A stretch of DNA of 64,000 bases from Colwellia sp. GTDB taxonomy: Bacteria; Pseudomonadota; Gammaproteobacteria; Enterobacterales; Alteromonadaceae. Of the stretch, positions 35,504 through 46,234 are shown in pieces (positions within the stretch are counted from its first letter, which is position 1; each line of letters opens with the position of its first letter). The stretch spans positions 1 to 64,000 of the forward strand of contig JABSOY010000023.1 of assembly GCA_013215385.1 (NCBI GenBank), written 5' to 3'. Below the pieces are notes generated by a model. It searched no databases, had not been told where the DNA came from, and was given only the letters and a program-made list of their open reading frames with translations. The position numbers were made by a program, and so were the translations under genes.

Positions 35504-37906
35504 ATGCCATCAAAGGTTATACCTACTTCATCAGCAACTCGTTTAGCAGTTGAACAATTAACAGCTCAATTGTCTGCAGAGCAATTTTCTTATTCTGAAG
35601 TTACCCCCGATGTCGAGCAACGTTTTATTGGCCATTCTCGTGCTAAGGAGGCGCTCGAATTTGGTTTGTCGATGCAGGCACCTGGCTTTAATATTTTTGC
35701 GATGGGTGAACATGGCACCGGCCGACAAACATTAATTAAACAAATGTTATCCGCCACGGCGGGTAATGAAAAAACACCTTTTGAGTGGTGTTATATCAAT
35801 AATTTTGATGATGTTCACGCCCCACATAAACTTTATTTAAGCGCCGGAGAGGGTAAGCAACTACTTACTCGCATTAATACTTTTATTGATGAGTTATTAG
35901 ACTTGTTCCCTGAGATTTTTGATAACCCAAGTTATCAACGTCAAACAGGTGCAGTAGATAGAGAGTTTAATAAAAAATACGATCAAGCAATTGCCGAAGT
36001 AGAAGAGAGCGCTTTAAAGAATGACGTTTTATTGTATGAAGAAGATGGCGAAATAGGTTTTTCTCCTTTAGTTGATGGTAAACCATTAAATGATAAAGAA
36101 TTTGCAAGTTTAGATGAAGGTAAACGTGCCGATTTTTACCTGTTGTTAGATAAATTAGAAAACCTTCTTTCTGAGCGACTTATTGAGTTACCACAATGGA
36201 AGCGTATTTCTTCTGACAAATTGCGTAAACTCAAAAATGAAACTGCTGAACATGCTATTCGCCCATTTTTAAAAGAACTAGAGCATGAGTTTGCCAGTAA
36301 CATTGGTGTTTTAAAATTCTTGTCAAAAGTCAAAACGCATGTCGTTGATACCGTATTAGAAATACTGGTAGATGAAAGCGTTGAAAACCGAAATGATAAA
36401 GATGCGCGTAAATTAATGGTTGAGCAGTTTCTCCCTAATTTATTGGTTTCACAAGAAAGTAATGCCGGTGCGCCGGTTATTTATGAACAAAATCCGACTT
36501 TTCAAAATTTGTTTGGTCATGTAGATTTCGCAAGCTTTCAAGGCAGTACATATACCAGTTACCGTTTAATAAGAGCGGGAGCCTTGCATAAAGCCAATGG
36601 TGGCTACCTTATTTTAGATGCCGATAAATTACTCAATCAACCCCTTGTTTGGGCACGTTTAAAGTTAGCGCTAAAATCACAAGAAATAACCATTGAAAGT
36701 CCTTATTCAGAATATAGTCAGCCCGGTTCATTTAGTTTACAACCCGAAAAAATCCCGCTAAAAGTTAAAGTTATATTGCTTGGCGACCCAGAAATTTATT
36801 ACATGCTGCAAGATTACGATCAAGAGTTTACCGAGCTATTTCGTATCTTAGCTGACTTTGATCATTACCTAGAAAGCAATGAAGAAACTTTAAATGATTA
36901 TGCCCATTTAATTCGTCAACGGGCCTATAAATATAACTACCCACAAGTGAGTAACAAAGCGGTACTTGAACTCGTGCGTTATGCGCTAAGACGTGCCGAG
37001 CACCAGCAAAAAATTTCAGCAAATATCGTGCAAGTAAACGATTTGCTCGACGAAGCTTTTTACCTGTGGAGTAAAGGTGGCAGTGAAGGTGAATTAACGG
37101 CCAATCATGTCACGTTAGCACTTGCCGCTAAGCAACGAAGAACAGGGCGGATGAGTGAAGCTTGGTTAGGTGAAATAAAAGAAAAACAAGTACTTATTGA
37201 TATCGAAGGAGAGCATGTCGGTAAGGTAAACGGGTTAACTGTCTTAGAAATTGGTGATAGTGTCTTTGGTACGCCAGCGCGCATCACAGCAACGGTTTAT
37301 GCGGGCAGTGAAGGGGTTACTGATATTGAACGAGAAGTCGATTTAGGTAAGTCAATTCATTCTAAAGGGGTCTTATTATTAACTGGTTATTTAGGCCATA
37401 AATACGGGCAAGGCTTTCCTGTCTCCATTTCTGCTAATTTAGCGATTGAGCAGTCTTATGGACATATTGATGGCGATAGTGCCTCAATGGCTGAGCTTTG
37501 TGCGCTTATCTCAGCGATATCTTTATTACCTATTGATCAAGGGCTAGCGATTACAGGATCTATTAACCAACACGGCGGCGTACAATCTATTGGTGGTGTT
37601 AATGAGAAAATTGAAGGTTTTTATCGCTTATGTAAAGACGAGGGATTAACGGGTAAGCAAGGGGTTATAATTCCTAGAACCAATGTCAATAACTTGATGT
37701 TAGCCGACGAAGTGATTGAAGCCGTTAAAAATGAGCAGTTTTCCATTTATGCCGTTGAAGACATAGACCAAGCGCTAGAATTGTTAATGAATGAATCTGC
37801 TGGAAAAATTAGTAAAACAGGCCGTTATCCTCGAAAATCTATTCATGCTCTGGTTTTGAATAAACTTTCACTTTTTTCAGACTTATTAAATGGCGTTGAC
37901 GAGTAG
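35504..37906 (+). CDS. Lon-related AAA+ protease (LonB/YcbZ type)
   Basis: ATP-dependent serine protease relative of about 800 residues. The N-terminal AAA_32-type region has GEHGTGRQT where a P-loop has GKT (Arg for Lys). A long helical insert (about 150-260) and lid follow, then the Lon protease domain (about 570-770) with the Ser/Lys dyad: Ser659 in DGDSASMAE and Lys702 in GGVNEKIEG, 43 residues apart as in Lon. An in-frame GTG four codons upstream (35492) is an alternative start. It is longer than E. coli YcbZ. Transcribed alone, ahead of the nuo operon. Confidence 0.9.
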   Translation: MPSKVIPTSSATRLAVEQLTAQLSAEQFSYSEVTPDVEQRFIGHSRAKEALEFGLSMQAPGFNIFAMGEHGTGRQTLIKQMLSATAGNEKTPFEWCYINNFDDVHAPHKLYLSAGEGKQLLTRINTFIDELLDLFPEIFDNPSYQRQTGAVDREFNKKYDQAIAEVEESALKNDVLLYEEDGEIGFSPLVDGKPLNDKEFASLDEGKRADFYLLLDKLENLLSERLIELPQWKRISSDKLRKLKNETAEHAIRPFLKELEHEFASNIGVLKFLSKVKTHVVDTVLEILVDESVENRNDKDARKLMVEQFLPNLLVSQESNAGAPVIYEQNPTFQNLFGHVDFASFQGSTYTSYRLIRAGALHKANGGYLILDADKLLNQPLVWARLKLALKSQEITIESPYSEYSQPGSFSLQPEKIPLKVKVILLGDPEIYYMLQDYDQEFTELFRILADFDHYLESNEETLNDYAHLIRQRAYKYNYPQVSNKAVLELVRYALRRAEHQQKISANIVQVNDLLDEAFYLWSKGGSEGELTANHVTLALAAKQRRTGRMSEAWLGEIKEKQVLIDIEGEHVGKVNGLTVLEIGDSVFGTPARITATVYAGSEGVTDIEREVDLGKSIHSKGVLLLTGYLGHKYGQGFPVSISANLAIEQSYGHIDGDSASMAELCALISAISLLPIDQGLAITGSINQHGGVQSIGGVNEKIEGFYRLCKDEGLTGKQGVIIPRTNVNNLMLADEVIEAVKNEQFSIYAVEDIDQALELLMNESAGKISKTGRYPRKSIHALVLNKLSLFSDLLNGVDE

Positions 37907-37987
37907 TCAGCGTGCGGTTTATCTCTTATTTCCCCTTTATAAATGTCTGAAAGAATAGTTATTTATCATTTTTAAATTGAATGATTA

Positions 37988-38017
37988 TTGTGCAGATTTT
38001 TAAATCTTTTCTATACT
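37988..38017 (+). promoter_or_regulatory. Candidate promoter for the nuo operon
   Basis: TTGTGC and TATACT are separated by 18 bases in the 300-base gap before nuoA. The spacer contains the palindrome AGATTTTTAAATCT. If used, the mRNA has a leader of about 205 bases. No other pair in the gap looks better, but this is a by-eye call. Confidence 0.3.
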
Positions 38018-38229
38018 CAACGTAAGTCACTTAAATAAGGCTTTTACCGTTTACCTATGGGTAATTGCCTTAAATAAGCTAATACGGACAGTTAACAGTC
38101 CAAGCTATTTACGGTATCTAATGTTTTCGTTATAGCTTTAAAATAAAAATAACATTTTTCGATAAGTATGCTGTCTATCGATAAAGCTTTCTTCATTTTA
38201 ATATGATGAAATCTTATTGGGGAGCTCGT

Positions 38230-38673
38230 GTGAATTTATCCAATCAAATCGCCGAAATATGGCCGATAGCTGCATATTTTCTTATTCTTATTGTCATGCT
38301 CATTGCCATGATGTTGTTATCTCATATCCTTGGCCCTAAAACACGTAGCCGCGCAAAAAACACGCCTTATGAGTCTGGCATTATTGCCGCAAAAACTTCG
38401 GCTACTGATAGTAATAACCATACTCGCTTTACCAACCACTTCTTTTTATACGCCATTTTCTTTGTTATTTTCGACTTGGAAACAATCTATTTGTTTGCTT
38501 GGGTCATCGCCTTTGATGAAGTCGGTTGGGCGGGGTTTATCGAAGCAAGCATCTTTATCGGGGTGTTATTAGCAGCACTGATTTATATCATTCGTATTGG
38601 CGCTTTAGAGCTTAAGCATCGCCACTTACCTTTTCGTCACCAGCGCTCTGCTGAAATTTTAAGGAAAGATTAA
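38230..38673 (+). CDS. nuoA: NADH-quinone oxidoreductase subunit A
   Basis: Membrane subunit with three helices. I choose GTG 38230 because GGGGAG lies five bases upstream and the resulting 147 residues equal the E. coli length; ATG codons at 38203 and 38206 would add nine or eight residues without a ribosome binding site. Conserved loop KNTPYESG and the [18 protein letters not shown] helix are diagnostic. First gene of the 13-gene complex I operon. Confidence 0.95.
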
Positions 38674-38675
38674 TC

Positions 38676-39314
38676 ATGGAATGGTCTTTAACGAAAGCAA
38701 AGCTTGATGACGCGATGTCGCAAGCTAAAGGGATTTCAGAAGAAGAGTTAAACCGCAGTGTCTTTATGGCTAAACTTGATGACATGGTTAATTGGGGACG
38801 AAAAAACTCTATTTGGCCGTTTAACTTTGGCTTAAGTTGTTGCTATGTAGAAATGGCAACTTGCTTTACGTCGCGACATGACATAGCCCGTTTTGGTGCT
38901 GAGGTGATTCGCGCAACGCCTCGTCAAGCCGACTTAATGGTTATTTCTGGTACGTGTTTTCGAAAAATGGCACCGGTTATTCAACATCTATACGATCAAT
39001 TATTAGAACCTCGCTGGATTATTTCGATGGGCTCATGCGCTAATTCTGGCGGCATGTATGACATTTACAGTGTTGTACAAGGCGTAGACAAGTTTATTCC
39101 TGTTGATGTTTATGTGCCTGGCTGTCCGCCAAGGCCTGAAGCTTTACTTGAAGCGCTATTACTTTTACAAACAAGCATTGAACATCAACCAAGACCCTTA
39201 AGTTGGACCGTTGGCGAACAGAATGTTAGCCAAATTGATAAACCTTCATTACGCGATATTAAGCAACAAGAACGCATTGATGTTACTACCTTAGATCCCC
39301 CTGATAGGTGTTAG
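38676..39314 (+). CDS. nuoB: NADH-quinone oxidoreductase subunit B
   Basis: Peripheral-arm subunit holding cluster N2, the last iron-sulfur centre before quinone. 212 residues with the tandem Cys of [10 protein letters not shown], the Cys of SGTCFRK and PGCPPRPEA. It begins two bases after nuoA. Confidence 0.97.
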
Positions 39315-39364
39315 CAAAACAAGTAACGATAAAAAAATCAATAATAAAGCAGGACGTTTGATTC

Positions 39365-41203
39365 ATGGCTGAGTTCAATATAAAAGCAAGTAAAGATTGG
39401 CATTGGGGTTCATCAGAAAATACTTCTGATGCTCCACAACAACATGTAAAATTTACTGAAGAGTTAAGAGTAGAGATACTTGCCCAAGCCGCTGATATCG
39501 AGCTAAAGGCAGTAACTGCTATTGAAAATATTGTTGATGGTATTTGTACTTTTTGGGTTGAAAAAAGTCAACTGATTAAGTTAATGAATGTACTGAAGAA
39601 TGAACTCGTTCAGCCCTTTGATATGTGCTTTGATTTGGCAGGTATCGATGAAACGACTCGTGAGCATCGAGCGCCACATTTACAAGATTTTACCGTGAGT
39701 TATCATCTACGTTCTTACCAAAGAAACCAAGATATTCGTATTAAAGTTGCTTTGCCGGCAAGTGACAAATCATTAGCAAGCGTTTGTCATATTTGGCAAA
39801 ATGCTAATTGGTACGAAAGGGAAATATGGGACATGTTTGGCATAACATTTAGTGGCCATCCTAACTTACGAAGAATCTTAATGCCGGACACTTGGCAGGG
39901 ACACCCGTTATTAAAAACACACCCTGCTCGTGCTACAGAGATGGACCCATTCACCTTAACCGCATATCAACAAGATAAAGAACAAGCCGCCTTACAGTTT
40001 GACCCTGAAGCTTGGGGAATGAAACGTCAAGATGAAGATAATGATTTCATGTTTTTAAACCTTGGTCCTAACCATCCTAGTGTTCATGGCGCTTTTCGTA
40101 TCGTTTTGCAAATGGACGGTGAAGAAATTGTCGATTGTGTACCTGATATTGGTTACCACCATCGCGGCGCAGAAAAAATGGGCGAGCGTCAATCTTGGCA
40201 TAGCTATATTCCTTATACCGATCGTATTGATTACCTTGGTGGGGTGATGAATAACTTTCCCTATGTCATGGCGGTGGAAAAACTCGCGGGAATTACCGTG
40301 CCAGATCGCGCGAAAGTCATTCGTATTATGACCTCAGAAATGTTTCGAATTCTCAGTCACTTACTTTTTTATGGCACATTTGCTCAAGATATCGGAGCGT
40401 TATCGCCGATTTTTTATATGTTTATCGACCGGGAAAAATTGTTTGGCATTATTGAAGCCTTTACGGGCGCAAGAATGCATCCAAGTTGGTTTCGCATTGG
40501 CGGTATTGCCCAAGACTTACCGAAGGGGTGGGATGTAATGGTGCGCGATTATGTGAATTACTTACCAAAGCGCTTAGATGAATATGAAAAAATGGTCATG
40601 CAAAATTCTATTTTGAAAAACCGTACGGTTGATATCGGCGCGTATTCAAGCCAAGAAGCTATTGATTGGGGCATAACCGGACCTGGCTTACGGGCAACAG
40701 GGTATTCGTGGGATCTTCGTAAACAGCGTCCTTACAGTGGTTATGACCAATTTGATTTTGAAGTTCCTCTTGGCAACAAAGGTGATTGTTATGATCGTTG
40801 CCGGGTGCGAGTTGAAGAGATGCGACAAAGTATACACATTATCGAGCAATGTTTAAATAATATGCCTGAAGGGCCTTATAAAGCTGAACACCCGCAAACC
40901 ACGCCTCCTGACAAGGCTAAAACGATGCAAGACATTGATAGCTTAATTCCACATTTTGTCAACGTTTCGTGGGGACCGGTAATTCCTGCAGGGGAAGTAT
41001 CGATGTGTGTTGAAGCCACTAAAGGGATCATGGGCTATCACCTGATTAGTGACGGTAGCACCATGAGTTACCGTACTCGTATTCGCACACCCAGTTTTGC
41101 ACATTTACAAATGTTGCCATTAATCAGTAAAGGTCAAATGGTCGCTGATTTAATCGCTACTTTAGGTAGTGTCGATTATGTCATGGCTGATGTAGACAGA
41201 TAG
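39365..41203 (+). CDS. nuoC: NADH-quinone oxidoreductase subunit C/D fusion
   Basis: Fused NuoCD (also called nuoC) of 612 residues, the gammaproteobacterial arrangement. The NuoC part (about 20-200, ending [18 protein letters not shown] and RRILMPD) is joined to the NuoD part (about 225-612, [16 protein letters not shown], with the quinone-site region), and the C-terminal [10 protein letters not shown] end is standard. It forms the quinone pocket with NuoB. Confidence 0.97.
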
Positions 41204-41212
41204 GGATTAAAT

Positions 41213-41758
41213 ATGAAAAGTGACGTTCTCTCCATGGAAAACATATCGACCGTTACCATAGATTACCGACAATACCTATCGACTACTGAGGTAGCCGCGA
41301 TAGAGCATGAAGTCAGTATTATGGAAACGCGAGAAGCTGCGGGTATTGAAGCGTTAAAAATAATACAAGAGCATCGCGGCTGGGTAAGTGACGACAGTTT
41401 ATATGCTATAGCAGACTTATTAAATATGCCAGAAGCAGAGCTTGAAGGCGTTGCCACCTTTTATAATTTAATTTACCGCCAGGCCGTAGGGCAGTTTGTC
41501 ATTCATCTATGCGATAGCGTTGCCTGCCACTTAACTGGCTATGAGGAAATTTATCAAACGATAAAATCGTACTTAGGTATCGATTACGGACAAACGACTA
41601 TTGATGGCAAGTTTACCTTTTTAACTAATGTTTGTTTAGGCGGCTGCGATAAAGCACCGAGTATGATGGTCGGAAAACAACATTATCAATCTTTAACTCC
41701 TGAAAATGTTGTTGAAATCTTAGCTGATTTAGCAAAGCAGGAGAGTGAAAATGACTGA
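41213..41758 (+). CDS. nuoE: NADH-quinone oxidoreductase subunit E
   Basis: Thioredoxin-fold subunit with a [2Fe-2S] cluster (N1a). 181 residues; ligands in CDSVACHLTG and CLGGCDKAP. The last codons overlap the start of the 62-codon duplicate frame by eight bases (AATGACTGA). The tail from TPENVVE to the stop is repeated downstream. Confidence 0.96.
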   Translation: MKSDVLSMENISTVTIDYRQYLSTTEVAAIEHEVSIMETREAAGIEALKIIQEHRGWVSDDSLYAIADLLNMPEAELEGVATFYNLIYRQAVGQFVIHLCDSVACHLTGYEEIYQTIKSYLGIDYGQTTIDGKFTFLTNVCLGGCDKAPSMMVGKQHYQSLTPENVVEILADLAKQESEND

Positions 41759-42060
41759 GGCTATGCGTCCACTCATCCAATTGGTTAATCTGGAATCACC
41801 ACTATCACTCAGTGAATATATTAGCGAAGGCGGTTATCAAGGTATCAGGAAAACATCCCATGTTCATCAATATTTAAATCCTGAAAATGTTGTTGAAATC
41901 TCAGCTGATTTAGCAAATCTGGAGAGCAAACATGACTGAACTTCTGAAGCGTCCACTCACCCAATTGGTTAATCTAGAGTCGCCACTATCACTGAGCCAA
42001 TATATTAGTGAAGGCGGTTATCAAGGAGCCAGTAAAGCACTACATGAATATAGCCCTAAA
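41699..42060 (+). repeat. Diverged tandem duplication of the nuoE/nuoF junction
   Basis: Two direct copies of about 181 bases: copy 1 begins at 41699 (CCTGAAAATGTTGTTGAAAT) and copy 2 at 41880 with the same 20 bases. Each runs through the nuoE tail, the ATG of nuoF and about 30 nuoF codons, then fades out. Copies differ at scattered positions and by one 3-base indel. Confidence 0.92.
41751..41939 (+). CDS. Chimeric 62-residue frame: NuoF head joined to NuoE tail
   Basis: Created by tandem duplication. Its first 31 residues copy the NuoF N-terminus (RPLIQLVNLESPLSLSEYIS against RPLTQLVNLESPLSLSQYIS) and its last 20 copy the NuoE C-terminus (PENVVEISADLANLESKHD). ATG 41751 overlaps the nuoE stop and its own stop overlaps the nuoF ATG, both by the same eight bases, so ribosome re-initiation along the operon is preserved. 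Within the NuoF-like part most differences are synonymous. No complex I subunit of this form is known to me. It may be a translated by-product, a bridging cistron or a new small accessory peptide. Confidence 0.7.
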   Translation: MTEAMRPLIQLVNLESPLSLSEYISEGGYQGIRKTSHVHQYLNPENVVEISADLANLESKHD

Positions 42061-43272
42061 CAAGTTTTAGATTTAGTCAGTAATTCAGGGTTAAAAGGCC
42101 GTGGCGGTGCAGGTTTTCCAACAGGGATGAAATGGGGCTGTGTGCCAATGTTTGCTGATAATGATGACAAAGCTCCCGAATTTAAATACCTAGTGGCAAA
42201 TGCTGATGAAATGGAACCGGGTACGTTCAAAGACCGTTATTTATTAGAAGGCGTGCCCCACCAGTTAGTCGAGTCGATGATCATCGGCTCTTATACCATG
42301 GCGGCAAATCGCGGATACATTTTTTTGCGTGGCGAATATCACCTGGCTGCCAAACGTTTACAGCAAGCGATTGACGAAGCCTATCAACACAACTGGTTAG
42401 GAAAAAACATTCAAGGTACCCAATTTTCTTTTGATTTATATGTACACACCAGTGCCGGTCGTTATATTTGCGGCGAAGAAACCGCATTGATTAATGCTCT
42501 TGAAGGGCGCCGGGCAATTCCAAGAGCTAAGCCACCTTTTCCACAAATGAGTGGTTTATTTGGCAAACCTACCGTGGTTAATAATGTCGAAACATTAAGC
42601 AATTTACCTCATATTCTTAAACATGGCGCTGCATGGTTTAAAGCGCTTTCTCCGGATAGCGACTCGGGCACTAAAATTTATGCCGCTTGTGGACGAGTAA
42701 AAACCCCTGGTTTATGGGAGCTACCTATGGGCACAACGATACGAGAAATTTTGTATCAACATGCCGGTGGCATGGCCGATGGCCTAAAATTACGAGGATT
42801 ACTGCCAGGCGGCGCGTCAACGGATTTTCTTTTACCTGAGCACCTTGATACACCAATGGACTTTGACTCTATTGCCAAGGCGGGAAGTCGTCTGGGAACA
42901 GGTGGTTTAATTGTCTTAGATGATAAAAGTTGCCCAGTGGCCATGGTGCTTAATTTAATTAAATTTTTTGCCCAAGAGTCATGTGGCTGGTGCACACCTT
43001 GTCGTGATGGCACGCCTTGGGCGGTAGAAGTGCTAACACGTATTGAAAATGGTCGTGGCCGCAAAGAAGATCTTGATAGCTTACATAACCTCTGTGATTT
43101 TATGTGGCTCGGAAAAACGCATTGTGCGCTTGCCCCAGGAGCGGTTGAACCCTTAAAAAGTGCGTTACGCTATTTTCTTGATGATTTTGAACAGCATATT
43201 GATCACGGCTGTTGCTCATATAAGCAAAGCACAAATCAACAAACTAAGCTGAAAGGACATTGTCATGGCTGA
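41932..43272 (+). CDS. nuoF: NADH-quinone oxidoreductase subunit F
   Basis: NADH-binding flavoprotein subunit, 446 residues. FMN/NADH site GRGGAGFPTGMKW near residue 57, cluster N3 ligands SCGWCTPCRDG plus a Cys in KTHCALAP. It receives hydride from NADH and passes electrons to NuoE and NuoG. Its first 30 codons exist a second time upstream, in the chimeric frame. Confidence 0.96.
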   Translation: MTELLKRPLTQLVNLESPLSLSQYISEGGYQGASKALHEYSPKQVLDLVSNSGLKGRGGAGFPTGMKWGCVPMFADNDDKAPEFKYLVANADEMEPGTFKDRYLLEGVPHQLVESMIIGSYTMAANRGYIFLRGEYHLAAKRLQQAIDEAYQHNWLGKNIQGTQFSFDLYVHTSAGRYICGEETALINALEGRRAIPRAKPPFPQMSGLFGKPTVVNNVETLSNLPHILKHGAAWFKALSPDSDSGTKIYAACGRVKTPGLWELPMGTTIREILYQHAGGMADGLKLRGLLPGGASTDFLLPEHLDTPMDFDSIAKAGSRLGTGGLIVLDDKSCPVAMVLNLIKFFAQESCGWCTPCRDGTPWAVEVLTRIENGRGRKEDLDSLHNLCDFMWLGKTHCALAPGAVEPLKSALRYFLDDFEQHIDHGCCSYKQSTNQQTKLKGHCHG

Positions 43273-46234
43273 TAAAAAAATGGCGGTATCGCAAAAAGTC
43301 ACCGTATATATCGACAATATTGCTTATCAAGTCAGTAAAGATAATAACTTACTTGCTGGCGTATTATCTCAAAAACTCAACTTACCTTATTTTTGTTGGC
43401 ATCCTTCCATGGGCTCGGTAGGTGCTTGTCGACAGTGTGCGGTAACTCAATATCAAGATGAAAATGATACGCGTGGCCGTTTAGTTATGGCATGTATGAC
43501 GCCGGTCAGTGATGGCATGCGAATTGGTTTACAAGATAATAGCGCTGAAAAATTTAGAGAACAGGTGATCAGCGCGATGATGACTAATCATCCTCACGAC
43601 TGTCCGGTTTGCGCTGAAGGTGGTGAATGCCATTTACAAGATATGACCGTAATGACAGGTCATGGTTCACGAGATTATCAAGGTAGCAAGCGTACGTTCA
43701 ATAACCAAAATCTAGGCGAACTGGTTGGCCATGAAATGAATCGTTGCATTACCTGTTACCGATGTACGCGTTTTTATAATGACTATGCTGGCGGGAAAGA
43801 TTTTGGCGTTTACGGCTCAAGAAATCAGGTTTATTTTGGCCGACAAAAAGACGGTACCTTAGAAAGTGAATTTAGCGGGAATTTAGTGGAAGTTTGCCCG
43901 ACAGGGGTTTTCACCAACAAAGTGTTTTCCGCACATTATACCCGTAAGTGGGATTTACAGTCTGCGCCTTCTGTGTGTGCACATTGTTCTGTGGGTTGTA
44001 ATACTAGTATTGGTGAGCGCTATGGTTCCGTTCGTCGGGTGATGAACCGCTATAATTCCGATATAAATGGTTACTTTTTATGTGATCGCGGTCGTTATGG
44101 TATCGGTTTTGTCAATGGCGAACAGCGCATTAAAAAAGCGCAAGGCATCAGCCAACAATCTTTTGAAAAAGTAAGCCGTTTAGATGTATCAAAAGCGCTG
44201 GCGCATTTTCGCGGCAAACGTTTTATTGGTATTGGCTCTGCACGGGCATCATTAGAAGCTAATGTTTATTTGAAAAAAATTGTTGGCGAAAATGATTTCT
44301 CAGCCGGTTATAGCAATCAACAAATGAAGGTGGCAAGCGCACAACAAAATCTTCTGCAATATGCGCAATCAAGCGGTGAAATTTTAAGTCTTAGTGATAT
44401 TGAAAAGTGTGATTTCATTCTGGTTATCGGCGAAGATATAACCAAGTCATCACCAAGAATGGCATTATCAATTAGGCAAGCTTGCCGTAATGCCGGTATT
44501 GATAAAGCAGCCGGTATGGGCATTGCTTCATGGCAAGACAGTGCGGTACGTACGATTAGTGGCAAACTTAATACACCCTTCTTTTCTCTGCATACTACAG
44601 CAACTAAACTAGATGAGCTCACCGAGCAATACTTACTATTAGCACCTGATGATATTGAGCACATGGTGTTAGTACTTACTAAGGCGATATATTCATTAAT
44701 AAATGAAGACTTCGACAATGCACATGAAAAACAGTTAGCGAAACTTTCGACTCCTCAGCAACTTTTTATTAGCTGTTTGATCACTAAATTAATGGCGGCA
44801 GAATCACCCTTAATTGTCACGGGTGATAGCTTAGCTAGTGCAAAAATATTAGCCGCAATTGGAAAACTGACTGATTGTTTAGCACAAGAAAAATTGACGA
44901 CGCAATTGAACTTAGTTGTACTTTCAGGCGCGAGTAATAGTTTTGGCCTATTGTCATTACTCGATAAGTCGACTTTATCAGCTGAACAGGTTTTATCTCA
45001 GTTCAGAGCAAAAAAAGTGCATGGCATTATTTGTTTAGAACAAGAATTAGCGGCTTTCACCAATGACGAACTAGCGCTGATAAGAGCGAGTGCAGAAACG
45101 ATTATCGTACTTGACCATACACACTGCAGAGTATCCGACTTTGCTGATATTGTTTTTCCGGTTGCTGCAGTCAGTGAAGGCAATGGCCACTATGTTAATT
45201 ACCAAGGGCGAGTGCAACGATATAACCAAGTACATGCTCCTGAATTGCCTATTTTAGACAGTTGGAAATGGCTGGCGTTGATTGAAGAGTCTTTTGAATC
45301 GTCAACAATGCCAACGGCGATACTGCGTAAAAACAAACTCGAACCCATCAATAACTTAGTCCAATTACACCGCTATTTTGCAGAATCACTTTCTGCTTGG
45401 CCGCTTTCTAATAAAGAAGTTAATCAAGAGGCTAATAAAGACAGTGGCAAGAATCAGCCGGTGGCTCGAATGACAAAACGTGCCAGTGGACGAACTTCAC
45501 AAGCGGCTAACTATGCTATTCATGAAGCTAAAGTCACCCAAGATCAAGAATTGCTTTATAGCTTTTCTATGGAAGGAAATAAACCCAATACCAATAATGC
45601 TATGCCATTTACTTGGGCGCCAGGTTGGAACTCCAATGAATCGATTAATCATTATCAGGTCGATATTGAAGGACCACTTATTAATGATATCGAAAATGAT
45701 GACTATTTATCTTTTGTGCATTCACTCTATGATTCAACACCTGACGGTGCAGAAGTAACCGAGGATAAAGTAGAGTCAGAGAACTCGCCACTTGTTTACT
45801 TTCCGCAAGGTTCTTTATTTAAAGGGGAATGGCAATCGGCCAACACGGCAGAGTTTAAGCTACTAACACATGAACACGAGAAACATTTTACCATTTACTT
45901 ATCAAGTACATCGGCCGAGCGACAGGGATGGAACAATGGACAGTGGTTAAAAATCATTACCGAAGATGAAACCGTTATTGGACGATTAAGGTGCGATGAA
46001 CATTTACCTGACCATCTAGCTTATGGCGACATTAATGAACTTACCAATAGGAACACCGGGGTGTGTATTACACTGGCAGAAGCTAAACAATCAGATGTTC
46101 TTTTGCAACTAGAAAATCGACAAGATCTTTATCAACAAGCTAAAGACTCGCAACAAAAAGTACTGCAACAACTGAAAAAATTTGACCAACATATTCCTAT
46201 TCGTTTTGTGGCTGGAGGCTTAGATGAAGCCTGA
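43265..46234 (+). CDS. nuoG: NADH-quinone oxidoreductase subunit G
   Basis: Largest peripheral subunit, 989 residues. N-terminal ferredoxin domain (CWHPSMGSVGACRQC) is followed by CPVCAEGGEC, RCITCYRC and CPTG cluster motifs. Next comes CAHCSVGC with a later Cys (FLCDRG), the extra N7 cluster found in E. coli-type enzymes. The molybdopterin-oxidoreductase-like fold (about 300-690) has lost its cofactor role. The segment about 690-790 is linker-like and poorly conserved. It overlaps nuoF by eight bases and nuoH by eleven. Confidence 0.95.
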   Translation: MADKKMAVSQKVTVYIDNIAYQVSKDNNLLAGVLSQKLNLPYFCWHPSMGSVGACRQCAVTQYQDENDTRGRLVMACMTPVSDGMRIGLQDNSAEKFREQVISAMMTNHPHDCPVCAEGGECHLQDMTVMTGHGSRDYQGSKRTFNNQNLGELVGHEMNRCITCYRCTRFYNDYAGGKDFGVYGSRNQVYFGRQKDGTLESEFSGNLVEVCPTGVFTNKVFSAHYTRKWDLQSAPSVCAHCSVGCNTSIGERYGSVRRVMNRYNSDINGYFLCDRGRYGIGFVNGEQRIKKAQGISQQSFEKVSRLDVSKALAHFRGKRFIGIGSARASLEANVYLKKIVGENDFSAGYSNQQMKVASAQQNLLQYAQSSGEILSLSDIEKCDFILVIGEDITKSSPRMALSIRQACRNAGIDKAAGMGIASWQDSAVRTISGKLNTPFFSLHTTATKLDELTEQYLLLAPDDIEHMVLVLTKAIYSLINEDFDNAHEKQLAKLSTPQQLFISCLITKLMAAESPLIVTGDSLASAKILAAIGKLTDCLAQEKLTTQLNLVVLSGASNSFGLLSLLDKSTLSAEQVLSQFRAKKVHGIICLEQELAAFTNDELALIRASAETIIVLDHTHCRVSDFADIVFPVAAVSEGNGHYVNYQGRVQRYNQVHAPELPILDSWKWLALIEESFESSTMPTAILRKNKLEPINNLVQLHRYFAESLSAWPLSNKEVNQEANKDSGKNQPVARMTKRASGRTSQAANYAIHEAKVTQDQELLYSFSMEGNKPNTNNAMPFTWAPGWNSNESINHYQVDIEGPLINDIENDDYLSFVHSLYDSTPDGAEVTEDKVESENSPLVYFPQGSLFKGEWQSANTAEFKLLTHEHEKHFTIYLSSTSAERQGWNNGQWLKIITEDETVIGRLRCDEHLPDHLAYGDINELTNRNTGVCITLAEAKQSDVLLQLENRQDLYQQAKDSQQKVLQQLKKFDQHIPIRFVAGGLDEA

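Follow-up and report, generated by a model that had tools for sequence, protein, structure and literature searches.

The nuoE/nuoF junction of a complete complex I operon is duplicated in tandem in the 64,000-nucleotide stretch of Colwellia sp. DNA analysed here (the window), and the duplication has left an intact chimeric frame of 62 codons between the two genes. In our judgement there is about an even chance that this frame has been held open as a relay which carries ribosomes from nuoE to nuoF, following a fairly old duplication restricted to this lineage. The duplication itself is real. The operon comprises nuoA, nuoB, nuoCD and nuoE to nuoN, all recognised by NCBIfam or Pfam models (nuoA above the cut-off in Pfam only), and the features at the junction are the following.

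41213..41758, + strand: nuoE, complete, 181 aa (NCBIfam TIGR01958, 147.4 bits against a cut-off of 142.4; Pfam PF01257)
41685..41865, + strand: first repeat unit, native nuoE tail and nuoF-like head of the chimera (repeat search, TRF, join at 41862-41864)
41738..41741 (approximate), + strand: GGAG, Shine-Dalgarno-like, 7 nt 5' of the chimera ATG (from the sequence; presumed role)
41751..41758, + strand: first 8-nt overlap ATGACTGA, nuoE stop and chimera start (from the sequence)
41751..41939, + strand: chimeric frame, 62 codons from ATG at 41751 to TGA ending at 41939, NuoF-like in codons 1-39 and NuoE-like in codons 40-62
41778..41843, + strand: conserved block, chimera codons 10-31, with 7 synonymous differences and 1 replacement relative to nuoF
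41866..42049, + strand: second repeat unit, nuoE-like tail of the chimera and native nuoF head (repeat search, TRF; 3' edge approximate)
41932..41939, + strand: second 8-nt overlap ATGACTGA, chimera stop and nuoF start (from the sequence)
41932..43272, + strand: nuoF, complete, 446 aa (NCBIfam TIGR01959, 574.9 bits against a cut-off of 558.65; three Pfam domains above cut-off)

The two units, 41685-41865 and 41866-42049, each carry a nuoE tail followed by a nuoF head. Tandem Repeats Finder (TRF) reported an array at 41685-42026 with a period of 184, 1.9 copies, 86% matches and a score of 524, and the direct-repeat search resolved it into two ungapped block pairs, one of nuoE tails (41685-41758 and 41866-41939; 89% identical, spacing 181) and one of nuoF heads (41765-41862 and 41949-42046; 84% identical, spacing 184). 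The three-base difference in spacing arises because of one extra codon near the native nuoF start. At 41941-41949 native nuoF is longer by that codon than the chimera and both of the nearest relatives. Apart from these pairs, the 64 kb window has no direct repeat that reaches 40 nt with its copies within 2 kb of each other (seed 11), and the other two TRF arrays have units of 25 nt and 18 nt. The duplication had already been noticed in a sequence-only reading, which placed it at 41699..42060; the array and the repeat blocks bear it out, but the repeat begins about 14 bases before that start. By ungapped jump alignment the crossover is best placed at 41863/41864. A crossover farther upstream in nuoE was considered as an account of the odd join codons 32-39 and was dropped, the jump alignment having left the join at 41862-41863.

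The chimera, with its NuoF-like N-terminus and NuoE-like C-terminus, was found at 41751-41939 just as the sequence-only reading had described it, and the same eight-base overlap is exact on both sides. A GGAG also precedes the ATG of nuoF by 7 nt, as it does that of the chimera. With the insert, 173 nt separate the end of nuoE from the start of nuoF. The frame is unbroken over its 62 codons, with neither the stop nor the frameshift by which a pseudogene would be recognised. The 62-residue product matches no Pfam family at E-values up to 10 and no NCBIfam family at E-values up to 1, and its single-sequence structure prediction gave a mean pLDDT of 53.1 and a pTM of 0.26. Predicted RNA structure at the two starts was no better than in shuffled sequences (z of −0.36 and +1.65). 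A scan of 37900-44000 yielded 13 promoter sites against a shuffle mean of 17.3 and 3 terminator sites against a mean of 5.4; both counts are lower than in the shuffles, and the scan therefore gives no sign that nuoF has gained a promoter of its own.

The nearest relatives found were Colwellia sp. DT_21 (L067; NuoF 88% identical) and Colwellia hornerae ACAM 607 (L068; 86%). Each has a single nuoE/nuoF junction with an 8-nt overlap, and in each the CDKAP-type motif of NuoE and the GRGGAGF motif of NuoF are 268 nt apart, against 452 nt in the window, a surplus of 184. Among 30 distinct relatives with NuoF at least 70% identical, the overlap is 8 nt in 21, so the coupling of nuoE to nuoF is probably ancestral. 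The remaining nine comprise three with an overlap of 4, two with an overlap of 1, one with a spacing of 0, two with +19 nt and one without a measurement.

Searches of the genus and the family, each covering one genome per species, confined the chimera to its own genome. Of the six genomes of the genus, the window's own included, only this one gave a full-length match to the 62-residue sequence; three others matched it through the head of their own nuoF and two gave no match. A functional micropeptide would be expected to be kept in related species, and within the genus the full-length match is limited to the one genome. Residues 1-202 of NuoF were matched in 72 of 295 family genomes, paralogues counted in, and a second match limited to the NuoF head (residues 2-49) occurred in the window's genome only. 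In the wider order search at least 138 of 394 genomes matched, among the matches listed, the query head being much diverged there; in two of the genomes with two matches, the second match spanned residues 43-157 and 43-149, outside the head. No second NuoF-head match was present at the wide nuoE-nuoF gaps of L104 (229 nt), L134 (817 nt) or L023-L025 (282-305 nt; NuoF 40-43% identical). In L104, a Pseudomonadota MAG, nuoE and nuoF lie about 229 nt apart at 2720-2950. In Thiobacillus sp. UBA2597 (L138, 3001-4607) the NuoF match is split into complementary pieces that cover residues 2-179 and 202-428 and lie about 410 nt apart, owing to either an insertion or an assembly fault. The sequence-only reading had counted absence from all relatives, together with the lack of a translation product, as grounds for giving up its view; the first half of this, absence, is what was found in the relatives examined. 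It also knew of no such extra small gene in nuo operons, and none turned up in the literature searched, mostly without subscription journals, where no report of a duplicated nuoE/nuoF junction was recognised either.

The age of the duplication can be bracketed by silent divergence. Between the two copies it is 0.32 overall, 0.45 in the nuoF part and 0.075 in the nuoE part. Between the window and the two relatives it amounts to 1.3-1.9 when nuoF and nuoE are taken whole, and to 0.62-0.65 when only the first 50 codons of nuoF are compared. Within codons 10-31 the copies share 88% identity with each other against 79-80% with either relative (identities that leave out L069, L070 and L072-L074, which aligned out of register by a codon), and both copies carry Glu where both relatives have Gln. 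Because the copies are nearer to each other than to the relatives, these divergence levels place the duplication after that split and not in the recent past, and a fairly old, lineage-restricted event is the best reading of the sequences. The low value at the start of native nuoF (41932-42081; 0.62-0.65 from the relatives against 1.29-1.44 for whole nuoF) is a separate observation, which hints at constraint on the nucleotide sequence near a coupled start.

The spread of changes within the chimera is uneven. The sequence-only reading had counted six synonymous differences and one Glu/Gln change between CAATTGG and TATCAAGG, which is exact, and the codon after TATCAAGG (GGT/GGA) adds a seventh synonymous difference. 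Codons 10-31 thus hold 7 synonymous differences and 1 replacement (dN/dS 0.034), the eight join codons (32-39) about 2 silent and 8 replacement differences, and the NuoE-like part, rightly called the freer, 1 silent and 7 replacement differences. When all stretches were compared with simulated neutral chimeras, the scan-corrected p was 0.004-0.006; a cruder count, of 22-codon windows holding 7 or more silent differences and no more than 1 replacement, gave 0.008-0.015 under neutral simulation. The silent differences of the NuoE-like part and the block also differ (1/14 against 7/17 sites, p 0.045). Gene conversion was considered as the source of the conserved block and rejected, because, base for base, the block differs as much as the NuoE-like part does; what sets it apart is the kind of difference.

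A dN/dS of about one half is what two copies should show if one evolves neutrally and the other accumulates mostly silent changes. The whole frame gave 0.49 against the native copies, and 73-75% of the simulated neutral chimeras had a ratio of replacement to silent changes as low or lower. With the two relatives (L067 and L068) used as outgroups to polarise the changes, 12 replacements can be assigned strictly to the chimera branch, 2 in the head, 7 in the join, 3 in the NuoE-like part and none in codons 10-31; the Glu/Gln replacement of the block belongs to the native side (nuoF), together with one replacement in the head and one in nuoE. Three of the block's silent differences are ambiguous after polarisation and one is unresolved. 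The contrast of block with rest ranges accordingly from p 0.0028 to 0.29 by the placement of the ambiguous silent sites, and with the eight join codons left out it is 0.17 or 0.028. Constraint on the NuoF-like part is suggested rather than demonstrated by these comparisons. The earlier claim of selection on the NuoF-like peptide is thus favoured by the scan and weakened by the neutral-like whole-frame value and by the upper range of the polarised contrast; the proposed dN/dS of the aligned copies came out neutral-like for the frame and low for the block.

The relay would have arisen as follows. After the split from the nearest known relatives, a tandem duplication of the junction joined the head of nuoF, in frame, to another nuoE tail and thereby copied the coupled stop and start. 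Ribosomes ending nuoE would restart at the chimera ATG, read 62 codons, stop at the TGA within the second ATGACTGA and restart on nuoF, so that two hand-overs through the chimera would restore the contact of nuoE with nuoF. Stops and frameshifts would be purged and missense changes tolerated, most of the 62-residue peptide being a by-product. In Escherichia coli, according to PMC10666635, two gene pairs lost 80-90% of their reinitiation when 38 nt stood between the genes and a third pair lost all of it, the final 15 nt of the upstream gene were enough, and unaided initiation at hyfI was 10-30%; according to PMC6728339, 13 of 14 overlapping pairs tested were tightly coupled. Without translation of the chimera, the gap would be 173 nt, farther than reinitiation after termination was seen to reach in E. 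coli. No stop or frameshift has arisen although the 12 chimera-branch replacements are distributed across head, join and NuoE-like part, and outside codons 10-31 missense changes without stops or frameshifts are the pattern expected of a relay; the whole-frame dN/dS likewise fits a peptide free to change. Against the relay, nuoF might start unaided on its own GGAG, which would make a relay perhaps unnecessary, conservation of codons 10-31 is not predicted by it, and nine of the 30 relatives lack a shown 8-nt overlap (eight have other spacings, up to +19 nt). The openness of the frame, taken alone, is weak evidence. In simulations with 15-30 substitutions and assumed indels of 0-0.1 per substitution, the chance of the frame surviving open ran from 0.33 down to 0.009.

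Were the duplication harmless and nuoF started from its own ribosome-binding site, the frame might be open by chance. This reading, which we regard as rather unlikely though worth serious weight, agrees with the dN/dS of 0.49 and a replacement-to-silent ratio well within the neutral simulation, with chance survival of up to 0.33, with the GGAG of nuoF and with the absence of the chimera from the relatives examined. Nevertheless, survival drops to 0.03-0.1 at moderate indel rates, the divergence of 0.32 between the copies implies substantial age, and the conserved block is left without explanation. That block is what a selected micropeptide would account for, if the NuoF-like N-terminal 31 residues were functional, for instance in assembling the NADH module, and the remainder were free to change. 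The dN/dS of codons 10-31, the scan-corrected p and the absence of all 12 chimera-branch replacements from the block (0.005 by site share) speak for it. The polarised contrast, however, weakens to p 0.10 or 0.29 if the ambiguous silent sites are not assigned to the chimera, and without the join codons the values of 0.17 and 0.028 are joined by 0.07 by site share; the product has no family match, and its pLDDT of 53.1 is uninformative. We consider such a micropeptide unlikely. A bolder proposal, to which we give little credence, unites it with the relay: a new cistron, born at the operon junction and held by coupling from the start, whose first 31 residues would function, for example by docking on NuoE during assembly of the NADH module, while the remainder would hand ribosomes to nuoF.

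Two further readings concern the origin of the copies. One nuoF head may have come from, or later been replaced by, a diverged allele through recombination, in which case the silent differences would predate the pair; the block indeed resembles between-species nuoF divergence, and silent divergence is far lower in the nuoE part (the 1/14 against 7/17 sites given above). This is very improbable, as the block's two copies resemble each other more than they do either sister (88% against 79-80%), neither is clearly closer to one relative, and the join codons resemble no nuoF compared. That an assembler joined pieces of two related strains head to tail is barely credible: the duplication is known from one genome, a 40-contig draft, but its contamination was reported as 0.18% and its completeness as 100%, the two copies are 11-16% different, and the join is in frame with codons that match neither parent well.

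If the relay is true, the junction is a clear natural case of a chance duplication within an operon becoming locked in, a stop or frameshift in the extra frame would uncouple the next gene, and small new cistrons would have a simple route to last until a function is gained. Ribosome hand-over through two successive overlaps in a respiratory operon could then be tested on the chimera as it stands.

In gene order the operon is the same as the fused-nuoCD operons of Colwellia hornerae ACAM 607 and Colwellia sp. DT_21 (nuoA, nuoB, nuoCD, nuoE to nuoN), from which it differs by the one extra 62-codon frame. Partial tandem gene duplication produces head-to-tail copies shorter than a gene, one of which drifts. 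The window is alike in its head-to-tail sub-gene copies, found singly in both sisters; it differs in that the repeat crosses a gene border and remakes start, stop and frame, giving an intact chimeric cistron. Coupled overlapping pairs, as described in PMC6728339 and PMC10666635, are likewise co-directed, with a short stop/start overlap and a ribosome-binding motif in the upstream gene; overlaps of −4 and −1 are the commonest there, against 8 nt in the window. Unlike such pairs, the window has two consecutive overlaps, one copied from the other, with a small frame between them, and its coupling is presumed. The duplicated junction is a variant of these known things, partial tandem duplication and translational coupling, and not a new system.
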